From NCBI RefSeq assembly GCF_021655115.1, contig NZ_PPXY01000019.1:124001-188000 (forward strand): a stretch of 64,000 bases of DNA. The letters run 5' to 3'. Under the pieces are notes generated by a model. The model was not told the DNA's origin. It searched no databases and worked only from the letters and a program-made list of their open reading frames with translations. Positions 20,206 through 24,674 of this stretch are shown piece by piece. Numbering within the stretch: the stretch's first letter is position 1; each line of letters begins with the position of its first letter. Made by a program: the position numbers and the translations under genes. This stretch comes from Clostridium sp. Cult3. GTDB lineage: Bacteria; Bacillota; Clostridia; Tissierellales; Tepidimicrobiaceae.

Positions 20206-21162
20206 CTATCCTCCTATTTGATACATTTTCTTAAATATATATTCTCCCTCTTCTAACCTATGGGATTCTGGCTTTTGTTTTATTGCCTTCACAATCAACC
20301 TCTCTATGTTCTCACCTCTTCTTAAAGCTGCTTTTAAATCTATCTCATCATTTGAATGAAGGCATAGCTTTAATTTACCTTGAGCTGTTAGTCTAACCCT
20401 ATTACAATATGCACAGAATTTACAAGATATTGGATTTATCAATCCAACTTTTCCCCTTCCATTAGGTAATTTATAGTATACTGCAGGAGAGGATATATCC
20501 TCCCTTTCTATTTCCGTTAATCGGGGAACCTTTTCCAAAACTATTTGATTTGATACAAAGTGTTTCGATTCATATTTAATTGCTTCTCCTATAGGCATCA
20601 ATTCAATAAATCTTACATCTATCTCTTCTTTTTCCGTCAATCTAACGAAATCCTCTATCTCATCATCATTAAATCCCCCTACTAAAACGGTATTTATCTT
20701 GATAGGAGTGAGTCCTACTTCTTTTGCAGCCTCAATCCCCTCCATTACATCTTTTAACTTACCACCTCTCGTAATATGGGAGTATTTCTTCTCATCTAAA
20801 GTATCCAATGATATATTTACCCTATCAAGCCCTGCAGATTTCAAATCTTTAGCATGTTTTTTCAAAAGGATACCATTAGTAGTCATGGCTAAATCCTCTA
20901 TTCCCTCTAGTTTTCCTATTCCTCGAAAGATATCCACTATACCCTTTCGTATCAAGGGTTCACCACCTGTTATGCGGATTTTTTTAATTCCTAATCCTTC
21001 AAATACCCTTGCAATTTCTACTATCTCCTCTACCGATAGTATATCCTTATGGTTAGTTTTACATATACCTTCTTCAGGCATACAATATTTACATCTTAAA
21101 TTGCATAGATCCGTTACAGATATACGTAAATAGCTTATATTCCTCCCAAATAGGTCTTTCAT
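20206..21162 (-). CDS. moaA: GTP 3',8-cyclase MoaA (radical SAM)
   Basis: A 318-residue radical SAM enzyme catalysing the first step of molybdopterin synthesis. The N-terminal cluster is C20-x3-C24-x2-C27 and the C-terminal cluster region is [26 protein letters not shown], typical of the family, is present. It ends in GG as usual for MoaA. The start at 21162 follows AAGGTGG at eight to nine bases. First gene of its operon, downstream of a strong terminator; a TATAAT box lies near 21213-21218 on the minus strand. Confidence 0.96.
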
Positions 21163-21225
21163 AACATCCACCTTCTTCCTTTGTCTGCAAAAGTTTTTTG
21201 AAATATTAATATAATTATACCACAA

Positions 21226-21264
21226 AAAAAAGCCCTTCCAAAATAACTTTGGATGAGCTTTTTA
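21226..21264. terminator. Terminator between the small membrane protein gene and moaA
   Basis: A 15-position stem with two mismatches (about 21227-21243 with 21247-21262), flanked by A and T runs; it overlaps the stop codon of the gene at 21262-21555. Confidence 0.78.
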
Positions 21265-21555
21265 ACCCTCTATGTAGTTGAAAGGATCAAACCAAATAGT
21301 AATTGGAAAGTATCGGGAACATAGCTCAAAATTATATACCCTTCCTTCCACATCCTTAAAGGAAACGAAATAGCTATTATGGATTGGAGAATAATCTATA
21401 TTTAAAAAATCCAAATTTTTACTAGGATAATTTTTATTAACATAGTTTATTGCAAAAACTTTCCCTATCTGCTTAGGGATAATTCCACTTATCCATAAAA
21501 CAACTATTAAGGCAATTATATAGATTAGGATCAATTTTTTAGCATCGATTATCAT
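21262..21555 (-). CDS. Hypothetical single-TM protein (DUF3139-like)
   Basis: A 97-residue protein with an N-terminal membrane helix (about residues 8-28) and an extracellular beta-rich remainder with several aromatic residues (NSYFVSFKDVEG, FELCSRYFPI). It resembles short DUF3139/YfjL-like proteins of Firmicutes, but the match is by general appearance. CAGGG lies six bases before the chosen ATG. It is a single gene between agrC and moaA, ended by the terminator that overlaps its stop codon. Confidence 0.6.
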   Translation of the reverse strand: MIIDAKKLILIYIIALIVVLWISGIIPKQIGKVFAINYVNKNYPSKNLDFLNIDYSPIHNSYFVSFKDVEGRVYNFELCSRYFPITIWFDPFNYIEG

Positions 21556-21646
21556 TTTCATCCCTGCCTTTTTATACTTCTTTTCATTATATATAACAAT
21601 ATTAGAGGTCCATTTGTGACAACTTTGTCTAAATTTTTTTAAATAT

Positions 21647-22972
21647 TTATCCCATAGGTAACATCACACTTAAAATAAATTCCCCTCTATCATATTCATA
21701 GTTTAATATTCCATTATATTTTTCCACCACTGAATCCATACTTTTAATGCCAAAACCATGTTTTTCTTTATCTTCCTTAGTGGTCTTAAGCAGTCCTTCT
21801 TCATCTATTGGATTAAATGGTGTGGGATTGGATATTTCAATAAATAAATAGTCCTTATATGGGTTTATCCTAACTTTTATATTTCTTTTATCTATATCCT
21901 CTATCTTTTCATTAGCCTCTATTCCATTATCTAATGCATTTCCCAATATTACGCACAAGTCTGTTGGTTTAATACCCACATTATCTGGAATGGCCACTTT
22001 CATATCTATATCTATCTTTTTCTTAATCCCTTCTGACTTTTTCTGATTTAGTATGGCATCTATCACGGCATTTCCGGTTTTAATCCATGTGTGGACTTCA
22101 AATTTTTCATCTTTTAAATTTTCCATATACTCATTTGCTAATTCTAAATTTCCCTGTTTCAGTATTTTTTCTATACAAATAATATGATTCTTAAAGTCAT
22201 GATGAGTTTTCCTAACCTCCTCATATATTTTTTCTTTTTCTTCAATTTCTTTTGTTAACATCTCATTTTTCATTTCCATTACTTTATAATTACTTCTCTC
22301 CCTGTAAAATTTATTTAATTTCATAAAAACATAGTATGTGATTACCACTATGAGTAAAGAGCCTATGTTTACAGTTATCATTAAATATTGAATACCTACG
22401 TTTAATTCGTTTAAAATCAAACCTATATTAAATATAACTAATAGATTTATCCCAGATATTAAATAGACAAATAATATCCAATACCAATAGTAGCGAGGTA
22501 TGCCAGATTCTCTCTCTACATAGTTATTTTTTATTATCCTCAAAATTATAAATAAAAATAATTTTGATATCTGGGAAAATAGTATCCTAGCCCAAGTTTG
22601 TTCTACTATTATGTCCTTTACATCTTTGCCAATAAACTTGCTTATTATATTTACCGCTATGATATCGCCAAATATTAAGAAGAAATAGAACATGGTGACA
22701 AAAAATATTTTTTCTTTTAGATTTCCATTGAATAGTTTATATGCTATAAATAAAAAAATTATATATATTAATATCGTCCGTATCATTAAATAGATATCGA
22801 TCTCAGTTAATATAAATATAAGAGTTGATAATGATATAATAGACAGATAATAATATCCATCTTTTATATTCCTATTCTTCTTTAACATAAATCCTAAAAA
22901 GTCGAAAAATAGAAGGACTTCGATTAGAGATAAAGCATATTCATATAAACTCCATAATATTGACTGGGACAC
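21647..22972 (-). CDS. agrC: AgrC-like sensor histidine kinase (GHKL)
   Basis: A 441-residue kinase with six to seven membrane helices in the first about 215 residues, a coiled segment, a histidine box (KTHHDFKNHI) and a GHKL ATPase domain (ILGNALDNGIEAN, GFGIKSM). This is the architecture of AgrC/FsrC receptors of cyclic peptides. It starts with GTG two bases after the agrA stop, with GGAGAGG upstream. It is transcribed with agrA and separated from agrBD by a terminator. The ligand is most likely the peptide encoded by agrD at 23826-23951. Confidence 0.9.
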   Translation of the reverse strand: MSQSILWSLYEYALSLIEVLLFFDFLGFMLKKNRNIKDGYYYLSIISLSTLIFILTEIDIYLMIRTILIYIIFLFIAYKLFNGNLKEKIFFVTMFYFFLIFGDIIAVNIISKFIGKDVKDIIVEQTWARILFSQISKLFLFIILRIIKNNYVERESGIPRYYWYWILFVYLISGINLLVIFNIGLILNELNVGIQYLMITVNIGSLLIVVITYYVFMKLNKFYRERSNYKVMEMKNEMLTKEIEEKEKIYEEVRKTHHDFKNHIICIEKILKQGNLELANEYMENLKDEKFEVHTWIKTGNAVIDAILNQKKSEGIKKKIDIDMKVAIPDNVGIKPTDLCVILGNALDNGIEANEKIEDIDKRNIKVRINPYKDYLFIEISNPTPFNPIDEEGLLKTTKEDKEKHGFGIKSMDSVVEKYNGILNYEYDRGEFILSVMLPMG

Positions 22973-22974
22973 TG

Positions 22975-23688
22975 CTATCCTCTCCTTGCAGTACTAATAA
23001 AACTTCTCTTCACTTCCTCTAGTCTATATCTACTAACAGGTAGTTTTTCTTCATTATCCAAGGTTATATCTAGATTTCCTATGCTCTTGATATATCTCTC
23101 ATTTACTAGACAACTTCTATGTATGGGAATAAATCCTTTAGGGATAAATACATCTTCTACATCCTTAAATCTTCTAATAGTAGTCCTATGCTTACCATGG
23201 AAAGTTTGGATTTGAACAACCCGATCCATAAACTCAAAATACAATATATCGCTAATATATAGAGCCACATCTCCACAAATAGTTTTGAATACATGTTTTT
23301 CATCTTCAAGTTTTTCCACAGCACTATTTAAAGCTTCTTCTAATTCCATATCTATATGAGTTTTCCTAATATATCTAAAGGTATTATATTTAAAAACTTT
23401 ATATACTTCGTCATCCATAGAGGTTATGAATATCAGCAAAACCTCTTCATCTCTTTTCCTAATAAGCTCAGCTATCTCTATACCATCCTTTTTTGGCATA
23501 TCTATATCTAAAAAGATGATATCAAAAGGCTTGTCCTTATTATCATAAGCCCTAAGTAACTCTATTCCATCTACAAATTTGTAGGCATTAGCACAGATAT
23601 TACCATATTTTAAAGTATTAATTATCCTATCTTCAATATAATCCAAAAAATAACTATTATCATCACAGATTCCAATGTTTATCATCAT
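22975..23688 (-). CDS. agrA: AgrA-like LytTR response regulator
   Basis: A response regulator of about 238 residues: receiver domain with phosphoacceptor in IIFLDIDMPKKDG, then a LytTR DNA-binding domain from about residue 135 (FHGKHRTTIRRFKDVEDVF, FIPIHRSCLVNERYIKSI). The start at 23688 is chosen because AGAGG lies six bases upstream; neighbouring ATGs at 23694 and 23685 are possible. LytTR proteins bind two direct repeats about 21 bp apart; exactly such repeats lie at 24599-24634 before agrB. Confidence 0.9.
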   Translation of the reverse strand: MMINIGICDDNSYFLDYIEDRIINTLKYGNICANAYKFVDGIELLRAYDNKDKPFDIIFLDIDMPKKDGIEIAELIRKRDEEVLLIFITSMDDEVYKVFKYNTFRYIRKTHIDMELEEALNSAVEKLEDEKHVFKTICGDVALYISDILYFEFMDRVVQIQTFHGKHRTTIRRFKDVEDVFIPKGFIPIHRSCLVNERYIKSIGNLDITLDNEEKLPVSRYRLEEVKRSFISTARRG

Positions 23689-23749
23689 AATCATCCTCTA
23701 TAAGAATTTTCTGATTATAGATTATCATGAATTATATGTGATGACAATG

Positions 23750-23782
23750 CAAAAACCTCCCACATCTACTTGGAGGTTTTTG
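23750..23782. terminator. Terminator between agrD and agrA
   Basis: An 11-bp perfect stem (23750-23760 with 23772-23782) with A and T runs at the outside, able to work in both directions. It separates the agrBD and agrAC transcripts. Confidence 0.9.
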
Positions 23783-23825
23783 TTCGTTATAGTAATAATC
23801 CCACACCCACACACTCTTGACTTTT

Positions 23826-23951
23826 CTATTTCTTCTTCGGCTTCTTAGGCTCGTAGGCTATAAATATTGACTGTTTCCCTTCTGCTGATATAGCCATCTT
23901 CTTTGATAGCCTAGCAATGTTTTTTAATACTTTCGTCTTTGTGTTTCCCAC
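23826..23951 (-). CDS. agrD: AgrD-like cyclic peptide precursor (GTG start, Ser in place of Cys)
   Basis: A 41-residue peptide translated on the minus strand from GTG at 23951, six bases after AAGGGGGG. It has a basic amphipathic N-terminal half (KVLKNIARLSKKMAI) and ends with SIFIAYEPKKPKKK. The Y-E-P-K-x-P tail matches clostridial AgrD recognition tails. There is no cysteine, so the ring would be a serine lactone formed by S28 with A32 or Y33; serine lactones are known from some staphylococci and Enterococcus. It overlaps the 3' end of agrB by 41 bases in another frame. Confidence 0.8.
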   Translation of the reverse strand: MGNTKTKVLKNIARLSKKMAISAEGKQSIFIAYEPKKPKKK

Positions 23952-24537
23952 CCTGAACCCCCCTTTCTAAATATTTTTGCTTGATTATTGAATAAGCTAT
24001 GGAAAACACCGTTATAGCTAACATAAACCATATATCTATTAAATCAGCCTTTACTATATATCCCAAAACCCCTGTTGCACTTAAGATTGATATTCTTATT
24101 CTGGATATTTTTTTATTTCTAACCATCTCCTCTTCTGTCTTTGGATTGTTCTTATTTTCAATTGGGGCAAATTTGAATATAACTAGCATAGAAATTATTA
24201 GTAATAGTAATCCTATAAATGGTTTATAAATATCTGATATTATACAATTTAAAATTACTAAAACTATATACGTAAATATGGAATAGATATAACATTCATA
24301 ATAGTGTTTTGCATGGTATCCGCCTGTATAGGATTTTAAGAAGAAATGCACTAATAAAAATGTCACAGCAAAAATCAAGTTCCCTATTAAAAATCCTAGT
24401 ATCAATATGCTAATGGATGTAAATAAAGTAGATATAAGCAATTCTAATCCATAAATATAAATTTCCCTATCCTCTATATCTATTATGTTATTGGTTATCA
24501 AATAAAAACTTATATCCTCCGCTAATTTATGTAACAT
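23911..24537 (-). CDS. agrB: AgrB-like peptide-processing membrane endopeptidase
   Basis: A 208-residue membrane protein with about six helices and the AgrB catalytic pair H75 (GGYHAKH) and C82 (YYECYIYS), seven residues apart as in Staphylococcus AgrB (H77/C84). It cleaves the C-terminal tail of AgrD and forms the cyclic peptide. GGAGGG precedes the ATG. Its last 14 codons overlap the start of agrD. Expression is probably controlled by AgrA through the direct repeats upstream. Confidence 0.93.
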   Translation of the reverse strand: MLHKLAEDISFYLITNNIIDIEDREIYIYGLELLISTLFTSISILILGFLIGNLIFAVTFLLVHFFLKSYTGGYHAKHYYECYIYSIFTYIVLVILNCIISDIYKPFIGLLLLIISMLVIFKFAPIENKNNPKTEEEMVRNKKISRIRISILSATGVLGYIVKADLIDIWFMLAITVFSIAYSIIKQKYLERGVQGGKHKDESIKKHC

Positions 24538-24569
24538 ATAAGCCCTCCATAAACCCCAATCTTATTTAG

Positions 24570-24634
24570 AATATACCATATTTAATGTAAGTTTTGCCAA
24601 AAACGGTACGAATGGTAGGAAAAACGGTACGAAT
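24570..24634 (-). promoter_or_regulatory. agrBD promoter with LytTR (AgrA) direct repeats
   Basis: Two identical 15-bp repeats, minus strand ATTCGTACCGTTTTT (24634-24620 and 24613-24599), recur with a 21-bp period, two helical turns, as in AgrA/LytTR sites (9-bp cores spaced by 12). A -10 box TATATT lies at 24575-24570. This indicates positive autoregulation of agrBD. Confidence 0.82.
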
Positions 24635-24637
24635 AGC

Positions 24638-24674
24638 AAAATAAAGTTAGATTCTGTATAATCTAACTTTATTT
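24638..24674. terminator. Terminator of the formate dehydrogenase/cofactor operon
   Basis: A perfect 15-bp stem (24639-24653 with 24660-24674) with a 6-base loop, ending the long leftward operon after the moeA-PBP gene. Confidence 0.85.

Follow-up and report, generated by a model that had tools for sequence, protein, structure and literature searches.

Does the short frame that begins with GTG inside agrB of Clostridium sp. Cult3 encode a genuine AgrD precursor, and if so, what closes the ring of a signal peptide whose precursor lacks cysteine? We examined the locus in the window, by which we mean the whole 64,000-nucleotide stretch analyzed, and in related genomes.

A cysteine-free agrD overlapping agrB

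The original prediction placed a hidden agrD at positions 23826-23951. The coordinates are correct and the gene lies on the minus strand; its GTG start falls within agrB as described, giving a same-strand overlap of 41 nt (Table 1). A strong ribosome-binding site, AAAGGGGGG, is found 6 nt 5' of the GTG, and the translated product, MGNTKTKVLKNIARLSKKMAISAEGKQSIFIAYEPKKPKKK, contains zero cysteines, as had been claimed. As an isolated peptide, it scores 20.1 bits against the NCBIfam model TIGR04223, a marginal match given the curated cut-off of 19, and a Pfam search of the peptide returned no AgrD match. When the same model is used in a six-frame search of the genome, agrD reaches 17.9 bits, slightly under the cut-off, so an annotation pipeline could overlook it; the warning that standard callers can miss the gene was a fair one.

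Table 1. Features of the agr region, listed in the order of transcription.
Feature	Positions	Strand	Description
agr box	24603..24634 (scanned core)	minus	tandem repeat with a 21-bp period, ATTCGTACCGT, directly 5' of the agrB promoter
agrB	23911..24537	minus	membrane peptidase/cyclase; PF04647, E=5e-38
agrD	23826..23951	minus	precursor of 41 aa starting with GTG; leader basic and amphipathic, predicted ring with Ser, tail basic
predicted ring	23856..23870	minus	predicted five-residue lactone S28-I-F-I-A32, from alignment with other AgrDs and the C. thermocellum precedent (PMC5322536)
hairpin	23750..23782	minus	CAAAAACCTCC-loop-GGAGGTTTTTG between agrD and agrA; present in the window and 5 relatives
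agrA-like gene	22975..23694	minus	response regulator, receiver and LytTR DNA-binding domains; PF00072, PF04397
agrC-like gene	21647..22972	minus	sensor histidine kinase, N-terminal membrane part and GHKL ATPase; PF14501, E=1.5e-25
99-aa gene	21262..21561	minus	single-pass membrane protein, small extracytoplasmic alpha/beta domain; directly 3' of agrC; 4 relatives have an orthologue preceded by an agr box
moaA	20206..21225	minus	downstream of the 99-aa gene, followed by moaC

The comparison with close relatives covered nine genomes: the window's own, seven of its family and one from another family (G246). All nine (9/9) keep the frame, the serine and a common motif, EGKQS[IMA]F[IL]x[YF]EPKK, within which EGKQS and YEP/FEP are invariant. 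The start is GTG in several relatives and ATG at the same place in others. In most relatives agrD adjoins agrB, and it is still intact in two genomes (G005 and G014) that carry inserted sequence between the two genes. No other AgrD-like frame was found near agrB, either in the window or in the relatives read. Comparison with the nearest relative gives a pS of 0.52 and a pN of 0.08 (dN/dS ~0.1), and differences over all pairs, counted downstream of the agrB overlap, fall 132/113/290 by codon position. The Ser28 codon is TCA, TCC or TCT among the orthologues, so the residue is kept while its codon drifts. Given the TIGR04223 match, the conserved frame, the purifying selection and the ribosome-binding site, we conclude that the frame at 23951-23826 is a genuine, conserved agrD gene.

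The gene belongs to a complete set in the order agrB-agrD-agrA-agrC, all on one strand, with a LytTR regulator and a GHKL kinase beside agrBD. The agrB gene is the sole copy found in the genome. In AgrB peptidases a histidine and a cysteine are catalytic, as is known for S. aureus AgrB; the corresponding His-x6-Cys motif, GGYHAKHYYEC, is intact in the window's AgrB, and the His/Cys motif also occurs in the family orthologues. The agrC-like kinase matches the AgrC model NF046015 weakly. Between agrD and agrA, the hairpin is likely a terminator or attenuator, which suggests that agrBD product is made in excess of agrAC.

A predicted serine lactone and its processing

Taken together, we consider it highly probable that this agrD serves a complete agrB-agrD-agrA-agrC quorum-sensing operon in which AgrB makes a serine lactone, SIFIA, that is sensed by AgrC/AgrA. 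The sequences establish the gene itself, its conservation, the gene set, the catalytic motif and the box upstream of agrB; the ring, the cut sites, the phosphorelay and the binding of the regulator are predictions. The predicted ring nucleophile can only be Ser28, which is invariant in the nine genomes. In alignments with other AgrDs, the residue in this column stands five positions before an aromatic-E/Q-P motif (here S28-IFIA-YEP). The fifth ring residue varies among the orthologues (A, S, T or F), and the EGKQ preceding the ring is constant; it may be a site of proteolysis or stay on the product as an exocyclic tail.

In the mechanism we propose, the basic amphipathic leader would hold the precursor at the membrane. 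The active-site cysteine of AgrB would cut after Ala32 and pass the acyl group to the Ser28 hydroxyl, yielding the lactone SIFIA, and a second candidate cut upstream of Ser28, at or before the invariant EGKQ, would free the peptide. Once secreted, the lactone would activate the AgrC-like kinase and, by a presumed phosphorelay, the LytTR regulator, whose predicted binding to the tandem box 5' of agrB would create positive feedback. Within this genome, the regulator would also drive the small membrane-protein gene in the same operon. The leader has a net charge of +6 and is amphipathic (muH 0.58, shuffle p 0.016); it is without the hydrophobic, signal-like character typical of most clostridial AgrDs.

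The closest precedent is the AgrD encoded by Clo1313_2818 of Clostridium (Acetivibrio) thermocellum, which gives a cyclic serine-lactone pentapeptide, S25-F29, cut before Y30 and confirmed by LC-MS/MS (PMC5322536). Like our predicted product, it is a clostridial AgrD with a serine nucleophile, a five-residue ring and a cut before tyrosine. However, its gene lies outside an apparent agr operon, in contrast to the full agrBDAC set here, and its leader resembles a signal peptide cut just before the serine, whereas ours is basic and amphipathic. The autoinducing peptide (AIP) of Staphylococcus pseudintermedius/intermedius is likewise an agr peptide closed by serine as a lactone, the closure predicted here, but it is a nonamer with an exocyclic tail (PMC3673130). 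Staphylococcal genes also follow the order B-D-C-A, and those of the window B-D-A-C. In Enterococcus faecalis, FsrD/GBAP shares both the serine lactone (predicted in our case) and a precursor gene overlapping the cyclase gene in another frame (PMC3673130, PMC12312760). Yet fsrD lies entirely within fsrB and its product has a nine-residue ring; the overlap in the window is only the 41 nt noted above.

The original prediction gave the ring as SIFIA or SIFIAY. A serine lactone is still the best explanation, and for its size we favor SIFIA, cut between A32 and Y33, because of the alignment with other AgrDs and the C. thermocellum cut. The same system with a six-residue ring, SIFIAY, would require a cut between Tyr33 and Glu34, and although AIP rings of six residues are reported in some clostridia (PMC12312760), the C. 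thermocellum serine lactone is cut before the corresponding tyrosine (PMC5322536). The aromatic residue before E/Q-P also aligns with a Tyr/His just outside the ring in other AgrDs, and we think this larger ring improbable.

Serine is a weaker nucleophile than cysteine, and AgrB might release its product in linear form, or the peptide might not be a quorum signal at all; the C. thermocellum AIP, for example, inhibits growth and was not tied to cell density (PMC5322536). However, the adjacent kinase and LytTR regulator and the conserved box before agrB point to a signaling loop, the serine is invariant, and proven serine lactones exist, so we rate this alternative as even less probable than the larger ring. 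That the frame arose by chance and the true precursor lies elsewhere is barely credible: 41 codons are not rare in AT-rich DNA, but the frame is conserved under purifying selection, matches TIGR04223 and has a ribosome-binding site, and the relatives read offer no other AgrD-like frame near agrB. A SIFIA lactone signal would give a clean, testable serine-lactone agr circuit to an uncharacterized anaerobe lineage, with [Clostridium] ultunense among the relatives.

Serine at the ring position of other AgrDs

The substitution of serine for cysteine had been presented as unusual, a view that the wider survey does not support. We sampled 90 AgrD peptides from 398 genomes of the phylum, and the residue at the ring position was Cys in 69/90, Ser in 20/90 and Thr in 1/90, fractions that are rough because the survey was built on TIGR04223 and AgrB matches and weighted to the better-scoring ones. 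In the order outside this family, the position is held, again as rough fractions, by Ser in 34/72, Cys in 28/72 and Thr in 5/72. We therefore reject the idea that serine is peculiar to this operon; the orthologues in the other eight genomes have it too. Serine-type AgrDs from other families of the same order (for example L017, L054 and L081-L085) have the serine at the aligned ring position, a YEP/YQP motif and, in several cases, a basic amphipathic leader; they differ in ring and tail sequences, and their AgrBs are only ~20-35% identical. We also placed the Cys/Ser label on a 54-row AgrB tree in which many deep forks are weak. The label is clustered, with ~8-9 changes by parsimony, at least three of them forced by well-supported branches.

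Reviews name S. pseudintermedius and E. faecalis as the serine-lactone cases (PMC3673130, PMC12312760), and a 2025 primer treats serine-closed AIPs from these two species as exceptions; our survey suggests that AIPs closed by serine are widespread among clostridia. We searched the literature on AgrD in Tissierellia and came across no relevant work.

The tail of the precursor had been described as very basic, and as a departure from AgrD tails said to be mostly acidic. It is indeed basic, with a net charge of +4. In the phylum sample, tail charge ranges from -5 to +5 with a mean of +0.7, so the premise of mostly acidic tails fails here; +4 is at the high end, and tails in this lineage typically carry +2 to +4.

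The survey also turned up two smaller groups. Five AgrD-like peptides (L059, L060, L028, L062 and L211) have threonine at the ring position (e.g., NSATTFLT-NQP), and could form threonine lactones or larger rings via a nearby serine. Five others (L027, L030, L029, L040 and L044) have adjacent cysteine and serine (TCSxxxYYEP), which makes both ring size and nucleophile ambiguous.

A conserved agr box and its candidate outputs

A perfect tandem repeat with a 21 bp period, ATTCGTACCGTTTTT, lies directly 5' of the agrB promoter. Such a box precedes agrB in 8/8 family loci checked, and its expected count in shuffled window sequence is 0.00. In S. aureus, the LytTR protein AgrA recognizes a pair of direct repeats that abut its promoters on the 5' side, and the spacers of these promoters exceed the optimal length (PMC4227749); the spacer at the window's box, read by eye, is ~19 nt. 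By this analogy the box is a putative AgrA-type operator. The window's own genome contains no agr box besides the one at agrB, and matches with three mismatches elsewhere in it occur at the background level of controls. Outputs beyond the agr operon are thus not visible in this genome. In relatives the box occurs several times, and its conservation offers a way of reading the regulon from sequence.

In the relatives, sites that differ from the box at 0-2 positions stand ahead of genes for predicted exported proteins, for regulators and for a membrane protein of 97-101 aa, the orthologue of the window's 99-aa frame. A confident structure model of the 99-aa protein (pLDDT 90) has two helices, one of them a membrane helix, and a sheet of four strands, and a fold search with it gave no significant match. 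The gene lies between agrC and moaA in the window and in G016. In G017, G011 and G004 it has its own box and stands ahead of moaA; in G014 the box is ~1 kb ahead of it, before two other small frames. Altogether, six genomes have an agr operon or a box ahead of the small membrane-protein gene and moaA (window 20206-24640; L254, L256, L258, L261 and L268). Where the search of a family genome found no agr locus, the box is missing and so is the 99-aa gene before moaA; the exception is G004, a draft genome that has boxes but in which no agrB was found.

This co-occurrence across relatives indicates that the 99-aa gene is probably an output of agr. moaA is possibly co-transcribed with the genes upstream of it and may simply be carried along with the agr target. 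More speculatively, and in our judgment rather unlikely, the serine-lactone agr system would control the small membrane protein as a conserved effector, and read-through from that box or operon would extend this control to moaA/moaC, making molybdenum/tungsten cofactor synthesis in this lineage follow cell density. What is new here is the 21-bp-period tandem repeat itself, found before agrB in eight family loci and, in relatives, before the small membrane-protein gene that precedes moaA. We regard this box and its link to the membrane protein and moaA as a more interesting lead than the serine ring.

In G246 (L267), where the gene order is agrD-agrB, a second agrD copy lies ~4 kb from the intact one; it is degraded, contains an in-frame TAG and has a box to itself. 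In Clostridium sp. Cult1 (G017; L006/L067), agrB is in two pieces, the order is reversed and a run of N lies nearby, and we consider the locus broken or misassembled; a third agrB fragment with its own box is found at G017:C1:2602116.
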